A stretch of DNA of 51,991 nucleotides, taken from the NCBI GenBank assembly GCA_018700525.1, contig JABITN010000067.1, positions 1 to 51,991 on the forward strand. The letters run 5' to 3'. Below, in pieces: positions 1-43,450 of the stretch (position 1 is the stretch's first letter; each line of letters starts with the position of its first letter). A program made the translations under genes and the position numbers. The notes below the pieces were generated by a model. That model was not told the origin of the DNA. It did not search any database and was given only the letters and a program-made list of their open reading frames with translations. This stretch comes from Opitutales bacterium. GTDB taxonomy: Bacteria > Verrucomicrobiota > Verrucomicrobiia > Opitutales > Opitutaceae.

Positions 1-43
1 ATGACTAAAACTATGACTGGTATCCATTCTATAATTAACCTCC

Positions 44-1180
44 ATGCATAAACTCATTCTTATCTTCGCTAAGACACTCCTTGTGCAACTAGCCTTAGGA
101 ACACTGCTTTGGGGAGTGGAAAAGTCTATCGAGACCCAAGTTCTCTTTCGCAAGGCAATTGATGGATACAATAATATTCGCATTCCCGCTATTTGCGTCA
201 CAAAGGCTGGGACGCTTCTCGCTTTCGCAGAAGGTCGCGAAGCTGGCGACAAAGGCGACATCGATCTCATATTGCGCCGCTCTGAAGACGGTGGCAAGAC
301 ATGGGGCGGTATCGAAGTAATTTGGGATGATAAAGACAATACCTGTGGAAACCCGTGTCCGGTTGTAGATCTGGATACAGGGACCATCTGGCTATTTCTT
401 ACGTGGAATCTTGGAAGCGATAGCGAGACCGCGATTATGACGGGAGCAAGCGAGCATCCTCGTTCCCCATGGGTCACTTATTCGGAAGACGATGGCAAAA
501 CTTGGGCGAATCCGAAAAAGCTTCCCCATCTTCGGAAGAAAGAGTGGACCTGGTACGCGACCGGACCGGGAAACGGTGTCCAGCTTTCGCGAGGCCAGTA
601 CAACGGTCGTCTGGTCATTCCTGCGAATCACGCCGATCGGGTCACTGCCAAACGCGATTCAAAGACCTACCGGTCGCATATCATCTATTCTGACGATCAT
701 GGAATGAGCTGGCAGCTTGGGGCGATCCAAGAACCACTTACCAATGAATCTACGGTGGTCGAGCTCGCTGACGGCTCGGTCATGCAAAACATGCGTTCCT
801 ATCATGGGAAGGGGAATCGGGCGGTTGCCTTAAGCAAGGACGGCGGGGCGAGCTTTGCGCCTCTCTATCTGGATAACGGACTTCAGTCTCCTGTTTGTCA
901 GGCGAATATACAGCGATACAGTTGGCCTGAGGAAAGCCGCAGTCGCATTCTATTTTCCAGTCCTACCGGAGAAAAACGCGAGGGCATTACTGTCCGCTTA
1001 AGTTACGACGAAGGAGAAACCTGGCCGGTCAGCAAAATGATACATGAAAGTCCCGGAGCCTACTCAAATATGGTCGGTCTTCCCAATGGCAATGTCGGTC
1101 TACTGGTCGAAATTGGAGAGTCTAGCCCTTATGAAACCATCAGCTTTATCATGTTTGACATCAATTGGTTGGAACATTGA
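44..1180 (+). CDS. Exo-alpha-sialidase (GH33-like), secreted
   Basis: Predicted to hydrolyse terminal sialic acids from glycans outside the cytoplasm. A hydrophobic N-terminus (about residues 3-24) looks like a signal peptide. The family's arginine motif appears as IRIP (R46), followed by GDIDL, where the acid/base Asp of GH33 usually sits. Five Asp-box repeats of the S-x-D-x-G-x-T-W type are present (SEDGGKTW, SEDDGKTW, SDDHGMSW, SKDGGASF, SYDEGETW). The NEST..MRS and YSNM segments match the usual nucleophile Glu, second Arg and catalytic Tyr regions. The 378-aa length suits a single-domain six-bladed sialidase. There is no clear Shine-Dalgarno site before the ATG. The aldolase gene follows 60 bases downstream on the same strand and may be co-transcribed. 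The fold is secure; strict substrate specificity is not. Confidence 0.85.
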   Translation: MHKLILIFAKTLLVQLALGTLLWGVEKSIETQVLFRKAIDGYNNIRIPAICVTKAGTLLAFAEGREAGDKGDIDLILRRSEDGGKTWGGIEVIWDDKDNTCGNPCPVVDLDTGTIWLFLTWNLGSDSETAIMTGASEHPRSPWVTYSEDDGKTWANPKKLPHLRKKEWTWYATGPGNGVQLSRGQYNGRLVIPANHADRVTAKRDSKTYRSHIIYSDDHGMSWQLGAIQEPLTNESTVVELADGSVMQNMRSYHGKGNRAVALSKDGGASFAPLYLDNGLQSPVCQANIQRYSWPEESRSRILFSSPTGEKREGITVRLSYDEGETWPVSKMIHESPGAYSNMVGLPNGNVGLLVEIGESSPYETISFIMFDINWLEH

Positions 1181-1240
1181 GTGTGAATCGCGAGAAAAGG
1201 CGATTAAAAATACGTTTCAATACTAATTTGAATTACCCAT

Positions 1241-2011
1241 ATGAAACAGAGTCGAGTTAAGGAAATTTGGAAGAAGGGGGGAGTCGCCATAGGCACTCTT
1301 GTTAAGTCTACGGACCCCGTGCACACGGAAGTGCTGAGCCAATCTGGGCTGGATTTTCTTTGGTATGATTTAGAGCACGCTGACAAAAGCGTTGAAACCT
1401 TCGCTAACCTCGCCCGGGCATCTCGGGTTGGCGACGTAGATATACTCGCTCGCCCGGGACGCTGGGAATACATGCGAATGGGTCGTCTTCTTGAAGCAGG
1501 AGCCCTTGGCATACTGTATCCGCGATGTGAGTCCGCGGACGAAGCTCGCGAAGTTGTTCGTTGGTCGAAATTCTATCCCGCGGGCGAACGCGGATTTGAC
1601 GGGGGAAGCCCCGATAATAATTACGGTCAATATCAAGCCGGAGACTATACGAATAGAGCAAACGAAGACACCTGGGTTACCACGCAAATCGAATCGCCCA
1701 AGGCATTGGTAAACGTTTCGGAAATCGCCGCAGTCGAGGGAGTAGACTGCGTTTTCTTTGGTCCCGGTGACTATTCGGCTCTCATAGGAAGACCTGGTGA
1801 TGTCAAAGGAGACGAGACGCTCAAGGCGGCTCGAATAATCGCTGAACAAACAATCGCCGAAGGAAAAGTATTTGGGACGCTCGCATTCGATATGGACCAC
1901 GCCAAACACATGAAAGACCTCGGAGCCCAGTTGATTGTTCATGGTGCCGATATTGTATTCTATAAAAAGGCATACGAAGAGTTGGTGGAAGCCTATCGCG
2001 ATTGGGCTTGA
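1241..2011 (+). CDS. HpcH/HpaI family aldolase (2-keto-3-deoxy sugar acid aldolase-like)
   Basis: A class II, metal-dependent aldolase of the HpcH/HpaI/citrate-lyase TIM-barrel family, which cleaves 2-keto-3-deoxy acids to pyruvate and an aldehyde. Visible family features are the N-terminal GTLVKS segment, WYDLEHA near residue 46, the LARPGR strand with the conserved Arg, GALGILYPR, FYPAGERG, the metal-binding QIES segment and GVDCVFFGPGDYSA. At 256 aa it is a normal full-length member. It follows the sialidase by 60 bases on the same strand, suggesting a joint role in breaking down a glycan-derived acid, but the substrate cannot be read from the sequence. It is not a NanA-type lyase: the family motifs are of the metal-dependent class. 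Confidence 0.85.
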   Translation: MKQSRVKEIWKKGGVAIGTLVKSTDPVHTEVLSQSGLDFLWYDLEHADKSVETFANLARASRVGDVDILARPGRWEYMRMGRLLEAGALGILYPRCESADEAREVVRWSKFYPAGERGFDGGSPDNNYGQYQAGDYTNRANEDTWVTTQIESPKALVNVSEIAAVEGVDCVFFGPGDYSALIGRPGDVKGDETLKAARIIAEQTIAEGKVFGTLAFDMDHAKHMKDLGAQLIVHGADIVFYKKAYEELVEAYRDWA

Positions 2012-2122
2012 TCCAACCAATGGTTAGCGGCTGGTGAAGTGCTGATAAATCTTGGCCTCAGGGTTTGACGAAGCGATCTGCAGCGCATTCGTCCACTGCG
2101 AGCTGAAATTCCCGAAGTCTGC

Positions 2123-3274
2123 TTATTGATTTTTCAACCTTCCGAATCGGATAGCAGTTCGGCGTTTGTCAGGGCTGTTGGAACTGTCCCAGACCGCGAG
2201 CCACTCTCCCGGCATATCTTCGACTAGAGTAGGGTAACTGTTCCGGTTGTCGTTGAAATAGAAGGTCTTTTCCTTCGACCAGTTGCCGCCGGGCTTCAGG
2301 GTCTTGTAATAGAGCCCTCTTCGATCGACTCTGTTGCTGTAAACGTAAATGTGATTTCCGTTGGCGTCTTTTCCAAAAAAGGCTTTGGAGCGATGATTCG
2401 GCAGGTCAGGTTCCGCTTTAGATATCGACCATGTAGTTCCCCCATCCTTACTGATTGACGAATAGGCGAGAGGCGGGTTCAAAGGGCGCTCGCGGTCCAT
2501 GGTTGCGGTTCTCATGACCATTTTCAGGATGTTGGGATCGTCTGTCTGGGCAATTTTGCCTTCGTGCAGAAAAACCGGGTCATCTCTAGCGTAAGGAACA
2601 TAACCCGCAAGATTCCAGTGCACGAGGCTGGTACTTTCCAGAACGAATTGTCTGCGATCGCCATGGAGATCATGACGCTGCGAATTGCGATGGGCGGGGA
2701 GAAGGTAGTGATTTACTCCATTTCTTTTCACCGTCTCGATCCCTGCGACGATTATCAAAGAACCCTGGTAGCCCATGGCCAGTTCGACGTGGTGCCAGGA
2801 GTATCCACCGTCTGCGGTATAAGCAGCCACCAGATCCGCGTTCTCGCTATCGCGGTAGTGCATAGGCGCGCGCATCGCATAAAGCCAAATGACATCCTGG
2901 TCCGGCGGACGGAAAAGGACCGCATTGTTGTAGGCGTATTGCACGCTGCCATTACGTTCTTGGTGATCAAATATCATGACCCTAGGGCTCCAGGTCTTCC
3001 CTTTGTCCAAGCTTATGGACGCGACCATGTCTCCCATATCTCCTTTTCCCCGTACCTGAAGTCCGTAAGCACAGATGTAGTGATCGTCAGACCACTTGGC
3101 GAAATGCGGTTCCCAGATTTTGTTGAAAGGGCCCGAGGGATCCAGCTCATCGATCGTTACAACGTCACTCAGATCTCCTTCGTATTGAGTCGAAGCTCCT
3201 TGGACGGAGCAAAGCGCGATTGAAAGAGACGCAATGGTCTTTATTGAGTATCTAATGTTGGATTTGAGGAACAT
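2123..3274 (-). CDS. Sialidase-like beta-propeller (BNR repeat) protein, secreted
   Basis: A 383-aa exported protein with a signal-peptide-like N-terminus (about residues 10-27) and at least two recognisable Asp boxes (SLDKGKTW, SKDGGTTW) plus a looser one near TADGGYSW. These indicate a sialidase-type beta-propeller. Unlike the GH33 gene upstream, it has no R-I-P motif, so it may belong to another propeller glycosidase or carbohydrate-binding family. It is convergent with the aldolase (111 bases between stops; I see no strong terminator there). The ATG at the right end is preferred because it places the signal peptide correctly. Specific function is unknown. Confidence 0.7.
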   Translation of the reverse strand: MFLKSNIRYSIKTIASLSIALCSVQGASTQYEGDLSDVVTIDELDPSGPFNKIWEPHFAKWSDDHYICAYGLQVRGKGDMGDMVASISLDKGKTWSPRVMIFDHQERNGSVQYAYNNAVLFRPPDQDVIWLYAMRAPMHYRDSENADLVAAYTADGGYSWHHVELAMGYQGSLIIVAGIETVKRNGVNHYLLPAHRNSQRHDLHGDRRQFVLESTSLVHWNLAGYVPYARDDPVFLHEGKIAQTDDPNILKMVMRTATMDRERPLNPPLAYSSISKDGGTTWSISKAEPDLPNHRSKAFFGKDANGNHIYVYSNRVDRRGLYYKTLKPGGNWSKEKTFYFNDNRNSYPTLVEDMPGEWLAVWDSSNSPDKRRTAIRFGRLKNQ

Positions 3275-3427
3275 TTTGATGGAATTTGAGTGAGTAAATT
3301 GCTGACGTGGCGGGTTCTGACTTTTAAAGCCTCCTCAAGCGTGATGGAGCAGGGTTGTCTTATCAAATTCGGATTGTTGGTATGGTAACCGGACCAAAGG
3401 AGAGTGTTCTTGCCTGATAAGCTCCGT

Positions 3428-3459
3428 GATTCTGCTTGAACAGACAGCAAAGCAGAATC
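3428..3459. repeat. Perfect 10-bp inverted repeat (hairpin)
   Basis: GATTCTGCTT at 3428-3437 pairs perfectly with AAGCAGAATC at 3450-3459 across a 12-base loop. A third copy of GCAGAATC lies just downstream, near 3476. No T-tract follows on either strand, so it is not a classical terminator. It sits between the start of the sialidase-like gene and a tRNA-like fragment, and could be part of an integration scar or an RNA element. Confidence 0.45.
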
Positions 3460-16485: not shown

Positions 16486-17346
16486 CTACTTGCCCCCGCT
16501 TGACTTTAGAATATTTTCTAGATCGTCCGCATTCGGAACCAATCCCGCCTCTAAACTGCGACGAGCCAACTCTACCGCCATAATCGGGGCTAAACCGCGA
16601 GCAAATGCTCCAATAGCGCGGGACATACAAATGTAGTAATTTTCCTCAGCTTCATTGCCGAACTCGATCATATTGCAAATCGGATTAACAAAACCATACG
16701 CTCCGAAAATCCCGTAGAACGTACCACTCAAAGCAGCCGAAATCTTGTAGCCTATAACCGCCGGTCCCTGGTCGATAACGCTCATTGTCAAAATGATACC
16801 CATAACTGCCGCGACTATCCCAATCCCAGGAAGCGAATCGCCCACCAAATGCAGGACGTTGATTGGGCCATGAGCCGTATTCTTCTTCGCATCGATCTCA
16901 GCTTTGAGCAAAGGCTCTAGCTGATCGGGCTTAATCTTACCATCGATAATCGGTCTCAAAGCCGAGCAAAGGAAAATCACTTTTTCCTCGTCCGCTAGAA
17001 AATTCGGATAGTTCTGAAAAATAGAGCTCGATTCCGGAGCGCTCACATGCTCGTCTAAAGCCAACAGACCATTGCGACGCCCCAGCATAAACATCTCGTA
17101 CAAAACCTTCATCAGATCCAAGTAGTCGTCCCTTTTCGGACCAGCTCCCTTGAGCACGCCAAAAACCGCACGCATAGTACGCTTGAGCACGTCCATCGGA
17201 GCACTCACGAGCAACATACCACAGGTGATACCTACGATTGCTATGGCTTCCGAATTGTGCCACAACAACAGTACGTTTCCGCCTGCCATAGTGAAGGCCG
17301 TTGCTGTAGCCGCGATAACGATTATGTATCCGATTATTATAAACAT
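16486..17346 (-). CDS. motA: Flagellar stator protein MotA
   Basis: The four-helix stator subunit, 286 aa. Helices lie near residues 1-21, 31-50, about 168-190 and 203-225. The family's SLPGIGIVAAVMGI and GAYGFVNPICN contain the two functional prolines, and the cytoplasmic loop holds GRRNGLLALDEH with the Arg and Glu that contact FliG. A strong AGGAGG ribosome site lies 9 bases before the ATG. It is paired with motB downstream. Confidence 0.96.
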   Translation of the reverse strand: MFIIIGYIIVIAATATAFTMAGGNVLLLWHNSEAIAIVGITCGMLLVSAPMDVLKRTMRAVFGVLKGAGPKRDDYLDLMKVLYEMFMLGRRNGLLALDEHVSAPESSSIFQNYPNFLADEEKVIFLCSALRPIIDGKIKPDQLEPLLKAEIDAKKNTAHGPINVLHLVGDSLPGIGIVAAVMGIILTMSVIDQGPAVIGYKISAALSGTFYGIFGAYGFVNPICNMIEFGNEAEENYYICMSRAIGAFARGLAPIMAVELARRSLEAGLVPNADDLENILKSSGGK

Positions 17347-35355: not shown

Positions 35356-36921
35356 TTATCTCTTTTCAGATTCGCCAATCCACTCGCGCAAAGAAACACC
35401 AATATTGGCAGGCTTTTGACGTATCAGCTCGTTAAGCATTTCCGGAGTAACTGTTCCGGGATCCTTGAGTTTACGGCTTTGTAGAGCTTCCTGAGGTTGT
35501 AATAGTTCAATTGAAATTTGTTCCGGCACGTTTTTCTTCAGCATCTGAAGAAAGAAAAAGATAACACCAATACCCAAAGCGATTCCTGCGACGTTCTTAC
35601 CCAATTCGATCCACCTCTGGTAATCGACCTCCTTTTGCATGAACATCGTCTGGACAGCGAATGGGTCCGCAGCGAATTCCATTTCCGTTACCGTTACTAA
35701 TTCCTCAGAAGACTGGTCTTCCTTCAATTCGATACCCAAGGCATTAATTACGATCTGCCTCAATTCTTGAATTTCCTCCGGTGTCCTATTGATCGGAGCG
35801 CCTGAATCTCCCATACGGTTCGAAACAAACAAAGATGCCGTCAGTCTTCGTATCGTACCTGGACTCTGAATACGGCTACTGACAACTTTTCCAACTTCAA
35901 AATTTTCGGTTATTTGCTCGGTAGTATCTTCCTTGTCTGTAAATACCCCTCCTGCACCTTCTCCCTGGTTCGTCAAATTGGAGATCACACCAGCGGCACC
36001 GCCTAAGCCACTGCCGCTCTCTCTCTCGCTCATCTTTTTTTCGTCCGTAACAGACGACCGTAAAACCTTTTTATCGGGATCGAAACTTTCTTCAGTTGTC
36101 TGGCTAGATGAAGTGTCTACATCCACAGCGACTCGTACCTCCGATTGATTCGGTCCAAGTACTCGATCCAACATTGATTGTACTTTCGTCGTGAAATAAA
36201 CTTCAAGCCCTTTTCGATAACGAATCACGTCATTCGAAAGCCCTCCGTTTAGACCAGTACTCTTTAATTCTTCGCTCAATACAACACCCTGACTATCAAC
36301 AACAACAACATCATTTACATCCAAACTCTGAATGGAATTTGCCACCAAATGCCGGATTGAATTCACTGAAGATAAATTCATTCCGCCTTTCGTATCCACA
36401 AATACGGACGCTGTTGCTCGCTCCCTTCCCTCGCTTGAAACAAGGATCCGGTTTTCTGGCATGACCACCATCACGCGAGCCGAACGAACTCCGCTAAACT
36501 GAGTAATGGTTCGCTCCAATTCGCCCTTAATAGCTCTCAAATAATTCGTGCGCTGAACAAAATCGCTGATACCGAAACTTCCTTCGTCAAACAACTCGAA
36601 GCCAGGACCTGTGCCAGATGGCACCAAACCCTCCGAAGCCAATTGCCAACGCAAGCGATGCACTCTAGACGCTTCGACGTAAATCGAATTGCCATTCTTC
36701 CCAGTCTCTGGATTCGAGCCCAATTGCTCAAGCTTCTCCATAATCTCACCGGCTTCTTGAGGATCCAGATTGCCGTACAGCAACTGCATGTCCGGTTTAC
36801 CCGCCCAAACGACCATCGCGATCATCGCCATGGCCACTAGACCCGAAGCAAGTGCTAACGAAATTTTCTGATTGACGCCTAACGGCTGCCAAAGGTCTTT
36901 AACTTGATTAATCAGTCCCAT
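35356..36921 (-). CDS. fliF: Flagellar MS-ring protein FliF
   Basis: The MS-ring, 521 aa. Two membrane helices (about 22-42 and 437-458) flank periplasmic ring-building domains containing LYGNLDPQEAGEIMEKLEQL, RALEGELERTI-like RAIKGELERTI and ARVMVVMPEN. The ATG at 36921 is preferred, since GGAG lies 9 bases before it; the longer frame starts with TTG. The C-terminal tail binds FliG, encoded next. Confidence 0.96.
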   Translation of the reverse strand: MGLINQVKDLWQPLGVNQKISLALASGLVAMAMIAMVVWAGKPDMQLLYGNLDPQEAGEIMEKLEQLGSNPETGKNGNSIYVEASRVHRLRWQLASEGLVPSGTGPGFELFDEGSFGISDFVQRTNYLRAIKGELERTITQFSGVRSARVMVVMPENRILVSSEGRERATASVFVDTKGGMNLSSVNSIRHLVANSIQSLDVNDVVVVDSQGVVLSEELKSTGLNGGLSNDVIRYRKGLEVYFTTKVQSMLDRVLGPNQSEVRVAVDVDTSSSQTTEESFDPDKKVLRSSVTDEKKMSERESGSGLGGAAGVISNLTNQGEGAGGVFTDKEDTTEQITENFEVGKVVSSRIQSPGTIRRLTASLFVSNRMGDSGAPINRTPEEIQELRQIVINALGIELKEDQSSEELVTVTEMEFAADPFAVQTMFMQKEVDYQRWIELGKNVAGIALGIGVIFFFLQMLKKNVPEQISIELLQPQEALQSRKLKDPGTVTPEMLNELIRQKPANIGVSLREWIGESEKR

Positions 36922-38158: not shown

Positions 38159-38187
38159 GCCATGCACCTAGCAAAACGCATGCCCAC

Positions 38188-40292: not shown

Positions 40293-41750
40293 TCAGCGTA
40301 ACTCTTCCGGAAGCTGTTCGTATCGATACCTTAAGGACGAAACAATATTCTTGAATTCATCCCTATCGAAACTCTCTCCCAACGAAAGCGACTCTTCGTT
40401 CAGTAGATTATTTATCAACGCACAATATCGATTATCGACCATCAGACCAAGTAACTCTCCCGTTTTTGAGAAGACCAAATCTCCCTTCGATGGAGAGAAG
40501 TCACCGAAAATACGACTAAACACCTTAGACTGCATTCGAACGTAACCAGGAGTATTCGCGGTCAATTTGAACTCGACCTCGCCGTAATAATCACCCTTCT
40601 CGTCTATCAGAATCGCTTCGGAGAACTTAAATGGCTCAAGCGCCGTATAGAACAATTCTCCCCCAAGCGAGTCCGCTTCTTCCTTCGAGATCCGTGTCGC
40701 CGCAATCCGAGGATCCAAGGCCAAGAACTCCAGTACCGATGGCACCAGTCGAGCCTCTCCTCTCACAAGCTCGGCACGCACTTCGCGATAGCCCAAGGTG
40801 CTTTTACTCAACCCCAAAGGAGTCGAACTTAAATGAGAAAGCGCGTAGATTGACTCGCCATCAGATACGAGAATTGTCATCGCCCGCTCTTCATCCTGCA
40901 AATTCTGCCCACGATAATAGCGATTCGATGCGAACATAGTTACAATTCGGCTAGCATTGAATTTCGAGAACAAGGTATTCGCATTTACCGGCAGACTCGA
41001 TCGAAACTCCTCTGTGAGATCCTGCGAACGTTCTGCCAATTGAGTAATTCCTTCCGCCATCTGCGTAGTTTGAGCCTGCAACTCCTTGCGTTCCGTTCGT
41101 TCAGCAATAACTTCGCCCTTAAGCGTATCGACATTCTCTTGAAGTATTCGTTTCTGTTCATCCGATACGCGGACCTGTATATTGAGTTCTTGAATACGAT
41201 CCTCCACTTCTTTCTTAGCAACTTGCTCCCGCTTCAGAGCTTCTTCCTTTTGCTTGATCTGCTTAAGTTTATCATCCAGCTCCTCCTGCAGCAAACGAGC
41301 TTGAGCCTCGGTCTGTTTCGCTTTCGTTTCCAGCGACTGGTATTTGGATTCCAAAACGACAATCGATTCCTTGGCTTGATTCGTCCCATCCAAAAGTGTT
41401 TTCTTCTCTTCAGCTAGCGCATTCTCTCGCGCACTCGCCAACTCCAAGTCATCCCGCAAACCGTCAATGGACGCATTTCGTTCATCAATGAGCTTCTCTG
41501 CTTCCTCAAGCTCTTTCTGCGATCGAGCTGTCTTATCCTGCAATTGTTCCTGAGCTACTTGCTCTTCCTCCAACGAAGCTTTCAATGTATCCAACAAATC
41601 CTGCTCCATCATAGCCATCGCGGAAACACTCTGCTCTCCCGACTCGGCAGGCGGCGTATCATCCGACTTCTTTTTCTCCTCCCAATTGACAAGCGACAAA
41701 AGAGTGAGAAGCAGAAAATCGCAAAGGATCAATAACAGCGTCTTATTCAT
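40293..41750 (-). CDS. Membrane-anchored coiled-coil protein with protease-like C-terminus (possible MotB/ExbD-type partner)
   Basis: 485 aa in three parts. (1) An N-terminal helix with a buried acid, LLILCDFLLLTLLSLVNW (Asp11, Trp23), resembling the ion-carrying helix of MotB/ExbD; MotB in this window has ADF..W in the same arrangement. (2) A long coiled coil, about residues 45-250. (3) A C-terminal beta-rich domain (about 255-475) with trypsin-like traits: ILVSDGESIYALSHLSS (His306) and SPSKGDLVFSKTGELLGLM in place of the G-x-S-G-G-P loop, so the Ser is missing. It lies 5 bases after the polytopic partner gene. Domain readings 1 and 3 are inference. Confidence 0.55.
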   Translation of the reverse strand: MNKTLLLILCDFLLLTLLSLVNWEEKKKSDDTPPAESGEQSVSAMAMMEQDLLDTLKASLEEEQVAQEQLQDKTARSQKELEEAEKLIDERNASIDGLRDDLELASARENALAEEKKTLLDGTNQAKESIVVLESKYQSLETKAKQTEAQARLLQEELDDKLKQIKQKEEALKREQVAKKEVEDRIQELNIQVRVSDEQKRILQENVDTLKGEVIAERTERKELQAQTTQMAEGITQLAERSQDLTEEFRSSLPVNANTLFSKFNASRIVTMFASNRYYRGQNLQDEERAMTILVSDGESIYALSHLSSTPLGLSKSTLGYREVRAELVRGEARLVPSVLEFLALDPRIAATRISKEEADSLGGELFYTALEPFKFSEAILIDEKGDYYGEVEFKLTANTPGYVRMQSKVFSRIFGDFSPSKGDLVFSKTGELLGLMVDNRYCALINNLLNEESLSLGESFDRDEFKNIVSSLRYRYEQLPEELR

Positions 41751-41755
41751 CGTCC

Positions 41756-43450
41756 TTATGCAGACTTCACCTTCGAACTAAGGGCAGCGAGTTCATCTTG
41801 GCTTAAGAGAATCAATTTGTTCTTGAACGGACGCACCAATTGAATTTTCACAATTGCCACCCCGAGAATCCCGAAAAGATTGGAACTGTAGGCGGCAATC
41901 AAATTCGCCTCAATCAGCCCCAATACCTGAAGGACCAAGGATATGCAGGTCCCAGCAATTCCAACATAGAGCCCGGAGTCGAAAAGGTTCTCTTCGTTCT
42001 CCATCAACTTTAACTTGATAAGATTTTCATAATCGCCTCGATCTATTTGACGCACTTTCAAGAGACAGATCATAAAGACCAATATCTGAAGCGTAAAAAA
42101 GAAGGAAACGGATAGCAGTGTTGCGGGTTCCATAGATGCGGTAGGTTCAGTTTCTAAAATAACGGTTTCGCCATCTACTTGTGCAAGTACAGGCATTACA
42201 AATTTAAAGGAGTATCCTTGAATCTCGCCATTGCCAGCCAGATAGGGTTCACTCAGGATGACGAGGACGATAACAGATGCGAGCGAAACGAACAATCGTT
42301 GAACATTAGCAAGTAAAACTGGGTTCGATTCACGATACGGACGATTAAATCCACCCATTCCCCAGAATGCCAAAAACGCTCCAACGAAATAAGCAAGATA
42401 CTTGATCGCGAGTGACGACTTTGGATTCTGCAGACTATAGCCAACAAGATATGCCTCTAACGAAGAAACCTCCGGCGACCCCGAATCCGGCTCCAGGGGA
42501 AGCTGCTCTCTTACGAGCATTTTGACCGAATCCACTCCATATCCAGCCGCGACGCGCAAGGCTTCAACTCCATCATCGCCAAATAGTCCGAGAAATTCCA
42601 TCACATGCGCCGGATCATCCACAATCATGGCTGACGCGTAAATCAATGGAGCTACATCCGCTCTCCGGTGAAACGAATAACGTAATTCCTTCACAGTATT
42701 CAAACCTTCGATCCTACCGAAAAGCGCTTCGTACTGACCCCAGTCGAACGAACGGGCCAATGAAAGCGCATCAAGATAGAAATCTTCTAGGGAAGCCACA
42801 TCGCCCGATGCCAACACATTCTCAAACCGATTTCTTAACTCCCGCTTCAGCGACGGTTTCAACCGATCGCCTTGAACCAATAGTCCAAGCGTCAATAACG
42901 TCGCCTCTAACGGCCTGCCTGAAACGCTCTGAACTGGGAAAAGCCGTTTATAAGTAGTTAAGTTACGCGTTCTCAACAAGTCACGCACCATTGGGTCGCG
43001 TGAATTTTCAAGCAAGCCCCTCAAGGCATCGCGGCAAGGTTTCGAAAGCGCTATACCCAGAACACCCGGTTGATCCGAATAATCGGCGAACGCTACTCCA
43101 TCGAGAGCCGCTTCCAGAAAGGGATCCCAAGCCCCCCAGTGGCTCAGCGTTGGATTCAAGCCTTCCCACTTGCTGAGTTCAGTTTCGATCTCCTCAACAC
43201 CATCCAAACCAGATATCCGCCCGGCCTCGAGATACATACGAGCAAGTCCAGCCTCCTCCTCTTCCACTGCCATCTTCGCCAAGTCAATGATCGAGACCGA
43301 ACGTGCACCCGCCTCGTGGAGGATCGCTCTTGGTATCGATTTGAATCGCGACGGAATCAGCCAACCGAAGCCCACCAAAACAACTCCAAAGATCACGAGA
43401 ACCAAGGAGCGAACGATACGACTGCGATTATTGTTTTTGAGAGAAGCCAT
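41756..43450 (-). CDS. Polytopic membrane protein with MotA/ExbB/TolQ-like C-terminus
   Basis: 564 aa. A first membrane helix (about 13-33) is followed by a roughly 300-residue helical-repeat domain, two helices (about 345-400), another near 441-463, and a final pair. That pair, LYVGIAGTCISLVLQVLGLI (493-512) and IAAYSSNLFGILGVAIVKI (517-535), resembles the last two helices of ExbB/TolQ (G-x-x-GT and A-x-x-x-x-x-x-x-G-L-x-x-A-I). The short charged segment KLKLMENEENLFDSG precedes them. The gene is coupled to the coiled-coil partner. I propose a stator-like channel; similarity is remote. Confidence 0.5.
   Translation of the reverse strand: MASLKNNNRSRIVRSLVLVIFGVVLVGFGWLIPSRFKSIPRAILHEAGARSVSIIDLAKMAVEEEEAGLARMYLEAGRISGLDGVEEIETELSKWEGLNPTLSHWGAWDPFLEAALDGVAFADYSDQPGVLGIALSKPCRDALRGLLENSRDPMVRDLLRTRNLTTYKRLFPVQSVSGRPLEATLLTLGLLVQGDRLKPSLKRELRNRFENVLASGDVASLEDFYLDALSLARSFDWGQYEALFGRIEGLNTVKELRYSFHRRADVAPLIYASAMIVDDPAHVMEFLGLFGDDGVEALRVAAGYGVDSVKMLVREQLPLEPDSGSPEVSSLEAYLVGYSLQNPKSSLAIKYLAYFVGAFLAFWGMGGFNRPYRESNPVLLANVQRLFVSLASVIVLVILSEPYLAGNGEIQGYSFKFVMPVLAQVDGETVILETEPTASMEPATLLSVSFFFTLQILVFMICLLKVRQIDRGDYENLIKLKLMENEENLFDSGLYVGIAGTCISLVLQVLGLIEANLIAAYSSNLFGILGVAIVKIQLVRPFKNKLILLSQDELAALSSKVKSA

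Follow-up and report, generated by a model that had tools for sequence, protein, structure and literature searches.

A two-gene, stator-like membrane module with a long coiled-coil arm, conserved within the phylum Verrucomicrobiota

What kind of machine is encoded by two adjacent genes that resemble an ion-driven stator in their anatomy and match no curated stator family? The question is raised by a 51,991-nucleotide stretch of an Opitutales bacterium genome (contig JABITN010000067.1, assembly GCA_018700525.1; hereafter the window), in which gene A, coding for a polytopic membrane protein, is directly followed by gene B, coding for a bitopic one (Table 1). An initial annotation, made from the letters of the window, read the pair as an undescribed stator-like module with a giant coiled coil and a protease-like C-terminus. 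The present analysis supports that reading in part and confirms the underlying sequence observation: the open reading frames (ORFs), their coordinates and the 5-base gap between them stand, and the genes do not overlap as had been stated. What is observed is a phylum-wide two-gene module, which comprises a four-helix core in A, a membrane Asp (Asp11) in B, conserved Thr/Ser (or Asn) residues in A, a coiled coil and a conserved C-terminal domain in B. From this anatomy, together with the pairing and conservation of the genes, we infer motor action; in our judgement A and B probably form an ion-driven, stator-like inner-membrane motor, working like ExbBD, TolQR or GldLM and equipped with a long coiled-coil arm.

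Neither gene is a chance ORF, since the matches in related genomes are mostly full length. Among 57 related genomes, from genus to order level, A matches 41 and B likewise 41; both genes occur in 40 genomes and neither in 15, and the association is strong (Fisher p = 1e-11, for genomes that are not independent). The two genomes counted as having one gene only are G005, with a broken A and no B, and G044, with a B fragment and no A. In G005 (contig 12, 288469-289279) the A fragments contain several stops and no B match is found; the pair seems to be decaying together in that genome.

The survey of gene neighbours proposed in the initial annotation bears out the pairing across the phylum, as B lies directly after A in 96 of the 101 loci read (37/41, 5/6, 34/34 and 20/20 in four sets). 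In the first set, composed of the window and 40 further loci, both genes are present in 37 and adjacent in all 37 (gap -11 to 125); the remaining four are the two halves of G051, where A and B lie about 70 kb apart, the G044 fragment and the broken copy of G005. Additional order-level loci show the same order of genes in five of six cases. Adjacency is found in all 34 loci fetched from other classes, where 81 genomes match (gap -4 to 31), and in all 20 fetched at class level, where 36 genomes outside the order match; two of these 20 were found by six-frame search. In G377, another genome with both genes, they are on different contigs. The B ORFs of L142 and L148 are weak against the B profile (E 0.02 and 1.2) and were counted by their position and N-terminal motif; that of L152 is truncated at a contig end. 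Distances among A cores and among B proteins agree across 92 loci (Mantel r = 0.93, 0 of 999 permutations), which is what vertical co-inheritance would give.

A profile of the long A protein matches 128 of 387 genomes of the phylum, 47 of them in the order of the window or nearer and 81 in other classes, and a profile of the short form matches 74 of 286 genomes of the class, 36 of these outside the order. The other-class hits nearly all cover the C-terminal part of A alone, with exceptions such as G118, and N-terminal-only hits occur in G191 and G210. The other-class loci include Lentisphaeria, among them Victivallis vadensis. These figures describe spread within the phylum; a contig scan with one short pattern, in which 80 of 91 relatives were kept, all of them of Lentisphaeria type (Lentisphaerae, Victivallis and kin) or named uncultured bacterium, does not speak to other phyla.

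By hydropathy, A contains five membrane helices in the window and six in L036 and L047. The AlphaFold2 (AF2) model of the protein (mean pLDDT 83.0, pTM 0.69) shows six long helices, at residues 7-31, 343-369, 378-400, 442-471, 476-490/492-509 (broken at 491) and 517-563, five of which hydropathy alone recognises as membrane helices in the window's copy. Overall, the protein begins with one helix, continues with a helical domain of about 300 residues and ends in more membrane helices. The domain at residues 34-342 is missing from the short A proteins of other classes. In 30 of 34 other-class loci A is a stand-alone short protein of 171-282 residues (542-601 in the other four), and the last four helices are for this reason taken as the core. 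Hydropathy and charge of the core fit a four-helix arrangement with short loops and both termini inside the cell, and the charge pattern fits an N-in orientation with the coil of B outside.

The last two helices, which had been likened to those of ExbB/TolQ/MotA, do carry ExbB/TolQ-like residues, GxGT and A..S(T/N)..G, and in most rows they read GLYxGLxGT...AYSSxLxGI. The 208 aligned core rows include repeated genomes (the same contigs were fetched twice, e.g., L128 and L191); in all 208, position 527 is Gly, position 491 is Asp or Glu, position 501 is Thr (189) or Ser (19) and position 524 is Thr (176) or Asn (32). Gly500 is replaced by Leu or Val in 13 rows and Ser523 by Ala in 10. A two-part motif, G-h-x-G-T-x(10,45)-A-x2-[ST]-T-x2-G-h, is found in 68 of 128 A entries, 42 of 66 ExbB/MotA entries and none of 2856 other ORFs. 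Because the motif was composed after both families had been viewed and the ExbB rows were partly picked by their GT motif, these counts, in which entries repeat across files, show specificity versus other proteins and are not a prior test. A broken third transmembrane helix is described as typical of ExbB/TolQ (PMC12505986), and a Ser/Thr ring around the Asp of the B-type subunit is reported as the shared core of ZorAB and MotAB (PMC11890865). In the present pair, the conserved Thr/Ser at 501 and Thr/Asn at 524 would face Asp11 of B.

The membrane Asp that the initial annotation placed near the N-terminus of B lies inside its single hydrophobic helix and is near-invariant: among 97 B sequences, a script places Asp at position 11 in 95, and a 96th (L340) was read by eye; a smaller set has it in 37 of 37 sequences. 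The B protein of L342, which stands outside the 97, also has it. The lone sequence without Asp11 is that of L057, whose N-terminus is missing and whose 271-residue ORF holds the C-terminal domain alone. A non-conserved Asp, with the N-terminus cleaved as a signal peptide, had been named as a finding that would speak against the module; Asp11 is kept in 96 of 97 proteins, and cleavage does not apply, since residues 1-15 are the best-conserved stretch of B. We consider it extremely improbable that B is exported by a signal peptide or is a lipoprotein cleaved in front of Cys10, with Asp in the +2 position. The N-terminus MNKTLLLILCD superficially holds L-x-x-C followed by Asp, but Cys10 is replaced by Leu, Val, Met or Ile in 19 of 95 sequences while Asp11 never is, position 9 is Ile, Leu, Met, Val or Thr with no small residue, and the hydrophobic stretch runs beyond Cys10 to residue 22. 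With Cys10 kept in only 76 of the 95, the lipoprotein reading of C10-D11 fails and was rejected.

The coiled coil of about 200 residues announced for B is borne out by a 3.5-residue (heptad) period over residues 46-250, with a power of 2.19 versus a maximum of 2.15 in 1000 shuffles, and the best 60 of 258 PDB sequence matches are mostly myosin, tropomyosin and other coiled coils. By a crude count, the coil has a median length of 332 residues in other classes versus 217. If straight, at 1.5 angstrom per residue, the 205-residue coil in the window would measure about 30 nm, a large span for a periplasm; the coil may therefore be tilted or folded back on itself.

Profile comparison shows the C-terminal domain of B to be homologous across classes (98.5%, E 1.6e-15), and hhalign detects in it no similarity to trypsin-like, ExbD or MotB profiles (MotB 0.1%). 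An OmpA-like domain was not found in B in a Pfam search at E up to 1, nor was such a family among the Pfam hits of 22 distant B proteins at E up to 0.01. The initial annotation had seen in this domain a trypsin-like pseudo-protease (PF13365), and B might accordingly be pictured as a membrane-tethered protease or pseudo-protease, its coil presenting a trypsin-like domain. A short GD-LV...G-E-x-x-G stretch is indeed similar to the end part of trypsin-like folds, and 31 of the 39 rows of the window's family have His306; the residue is missing from the other eight, the alignment contains no GxSGG-type serine motif, and comparison by hhalign with 29 Trypsin_2-family proteins reaches no more than 0.4% probability, over a 14-column stretch. 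At the level of sequence the protease-like claim is therefore not upheld, and we judge the reading very unlikely, although a remote barrel fold of the domain is conceivable. As a separate observation, the L057 ORF (7214-8033, in genome G044, which has no A match) begins with a hydrophobic, secretion-like N-terminus by eye; the C-terminal domain, seen there by itself, may work alone in the periplasm.

In line with the term undescribed, no curated stator family model matches A or B. A Pfam and NCBIfam scan of the two window proteins returned no stator family model, A having no PF01618 match at E up to 1, and 37 long and 27 short A proteins had none at E up to 0.1. Pfam searches with the aligned A and B sets gave scattered weak hits and no stator family; no stator was among the PDB sequence matches listed for either protein, and PADLOC, run on four proteins, gave no ZorA or ZorB model hit. 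Among the open-licence PMC matches listed, no paper describes the pair by title or abstract start.

Remote-homology comparison, suggested earlier as a check for both proteins, succeeded for the C-terminal domain of B across classes and left A below 10% probability for the stators compared. The hhalign probabilities of A to ExbB, TolQ and MotA are at most 9.3%, and the real score was reached by shuffled controls, of 200 each, 3 times for ExbB, 4 for short ExbB, 8 for TolQ and 21 for MotA, a result that is suggestive for the first three and weak for MotA. Single-sequence hhalign scores average 18.8 against ExbB and 15.6 against MotA, compared with 13.9 for 76 membrane controls (Mann-Whitney p = 1e-12 and 0.004, respectively); the ExbB rows are mutually related, and one of the controls (L051_1) is itself an ExbB-like ORF. 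No stator appears among the 50 matches listed in a fold comparison of whole A, which speaks neither for nor against the relationship. The missing family-model match and the hhalign values below 10%, with the uninformative fold comparison, are the reason why A is not filed as a member of the MotA/TolQ/ExbB family. GldLM is presented as a motor of 5:2 stoichiometry whose sequence has no obvious homology to that of MotAB (PMC9389320), and missing homology therefore does not exclude a motor mechanism for A and B. The window's genome contains ten PF01618 (MotA/ExbB) matches, so the pair sits among many ordinary stator-type genes.

The same comparisons leave some room for a trans-envelope scaffold or sensor, in which A would anchor B, the buried Asp would pack helices and the coil would position or sense something in the periplasm, for example by feeding an adjacent kinase. 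This alternative, which we rate as possible and clearly less probable than a motor, gains from the fact that ion conduction and motion are so far predicted for A/B, from the lack of a clear match in profile and fold comparisons with known stators, and from the Ser/Thr kinase gene that comes next to B in 18 of 34 other-class loci. Against it stands the combination of strict pairing, a membrane Asp that is almost invariant and Thr/Ser residues in A's last two helices, a set of features shared by ion-driven motors. The kinase, moreover, cannot be a general partner, as the search found it in none of 46 order-level loci and in one of 20 class-level ones.

The stator-like motor that we favour can be compared with four known systems. 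Like ExbBD and TolQR (MotA/TolQ/ExbB family, PF01618), the module has adjacent A and B genes, a helix pair in A with G-h-x-G-T and A..[ST]T..G (in its strict form in 68 of 128 A entries), one Asp-bearing helix in B and, in the AF2 model, a broken third core helix in A; unlike them, it shows no detectable profile homology, its cytoplasmic loop is very short, and B has, in place of the short ExbD/TolR domain, an unrelated C-terminal domain together with a long coiled coil of its own. MotAB shares the four-helix core of A, with both ends predicted to be cytoplasmic, and the single Asp-bearing helix of B, and differs in the length of the cytoplasmic loop, which is very short in A, in the OmpA-like domain, for which B gave no match, and in that the pair shows no correlation with FliF. 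In GldLM/PorLM, the type 9 secretion and gliding motor, the B-type subunit is a periplasmic shaft, and FGE-fold proteins (PorK, GldK and GldJ) are reported in the same machinery (PMC12421860), much as many other-class loci have an FGE-domain kinase next to AB; by contrast, B is mostly coiled coil and not composed of four domains, and the FGE domain near AB is fused to a Ser/Thr kinase, with no type 9 system implied. ZorAB, the phage-defence pair, is likewise reported as a 5:2 motor with its Asp ringed by Ser/Thr (PMC11890865), a stoichiometry that A and B would share; ZorA carries a long cytoplasmic tail, whereas here the long arm is on B. Phage defence itself was considered and rejected as a role: what PADLOC matched on B were the coiled coils of SMC-like and other proteins, and A has no hit.

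In the motor that we favour, several copies of A, probably five, would surround two B helices, and ions would enter the cell past the Thr/Ser ring and Asp11. The coiled coil would carry the resulting motion outward to the C-terminal domain, which would engage a partner in the envelope. TolA, TonB and GldM are long arms of this sort, and B would unite in one chain the work of ExbD (the Asp helix) and of TolA/TonB (the arm), as GldM does. If so, a phylum-wide family would be added to the few known ion-driven envelope motors. It would include a very small version, in which A has about 180 residues and so roughly equals the shortest ExbB-like ORFs fetched, and this could serve as a minimal system for how ion flow becomes motion.

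Table 1. Features of the A/B locus in the window.
Feature	Coordinates	Strand	Basis
Gene A, polytopic membrane protein, 564 aa	41756..43450	minus	ORF, hydropathy, AF2 model
Gene B, bitopic protein, 485 aa, starting 5 bases after A	40293..41750	minus	ORF
A residues 34-342, helical domain after the first helix, probably periplasmic	42425..43351	minus	Side inferred from charge distribution
A residues 442-563, last three helices of the core (442-471; 476-490/492-509, break at 491; 517-563)	41762..42127	minus	AF2 model and homology to stand-alone short A
A motif G497-IAG-T501	41948..41962	minus	Aligned core rows
A motif A520-YSSNLFGI	41867..41893	minus	Aligned core rows
B residues 4-22, single membrane helix, MN(K/R)(T/S)LLL(I/V)xCDFLLL in the window's family	41685..41741	minus	Alignment, hydropathy
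B Asp11 codon, candidate ion-binding residue	41718..41720	minus	Alignment
B residues 46-250, coiled coil	41001..41615	minus	3.5-residue period and PDB sequence matches
B residues 251-485, C-terminal domain with DPR, PFkFseA, YGE and GDlVfsktGellG motifs	40296..41000	minus	Alignment, cross-class homology

The genes adjoining the pair differ among lineages. Of the 18 other-class loci with a Ser/Thr kinase gene after B (e.g., L131:2534-5146), 16 have an FGE-domain match in that gene, and a Pfam scan of three such proteins identified the kinase domain in all three and the FGE-sulfatase domain in two, the third being cut by the end of its locus. No kinase match was found in the 46 order-level loci searched, a set that did not include the window, and the 20 class-level loci gave a single one (L334). 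In a search of 14 chosen genomes, five (G057, G061, G114, G196 and G288) have a single FGE match, located at this locus; twelve matches were found in G330 and none in G126. Between the two domains of the kinase lies a hydrophobic stretch, which suggests that the FGE domain is periplasmic. PorK, a ring protein of type 9 secretion, has the FGE fold, and within the PorLM-powered type 9 system the FGE folds of PorK, GldK and GldJ are reported to act as docking hubs (PMC12421860); the parallel with the kinase is suggestive, and it is specific. In Lentisphaeria, the FGE-fold domain of the adjacent kinase is a candidate partner of B. A bolder proposal, which we regard as rather unlikely, holds that the pairs are ion-driven envelope motors of a lineage of their own within this phylum, with the Asp-bearing axle and the long arm combined in a single protein, and that in Lentisphaeria the moving C-terminal domain docks on the periplasmic FGE domain of the adjacent transmembrane Ser/Thr kinase, turning envelope force or load into phosphorylation. 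The presence of the FGE-domain kinase beside the pair makes such a force-to-signal link directly testable. In L142, a 1153-residue ORF (1-3459, minus strand) follows B and runs off the locus; it has no Pfam match at E up to 0.001.

In the window, flagellar genes begin about 2.1 kb from the pair (an ORF read as flgB ends at 38167, and a FliF match lies at 36274-36801), and a MotA match is located at 17068-17337. The flagellar surroundings and the MotA gene described in the initial annotation are therefore real, and a functional link is not borne out. A flagellar accessory system could be imagined from this distance and from the position of the pair within about 10 kb of FliF in G007, G009, G010, G018, G022 and G029, but the pair does not track FliF/YscJ (PF01514): among the 57 genomes, many of them drafts in which some genes may be hidden, both occur in 27, the pair only in 13, FliF/YscJ only in 8 and neither in 9 (Fisher p = 0.23). 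With 13 of 40 pair-bearing genomes lacking a FliF/YscJ match and 8 of 35 FliF/YscJ genomes lacking the pair, we give this explanation next to no credence. Finally, a gene read as peptide deformylase (by reading, with no family search) is present in 31 of 81 loci, usually divergent beside A, and its position looks like a reflection of shared ancestry.

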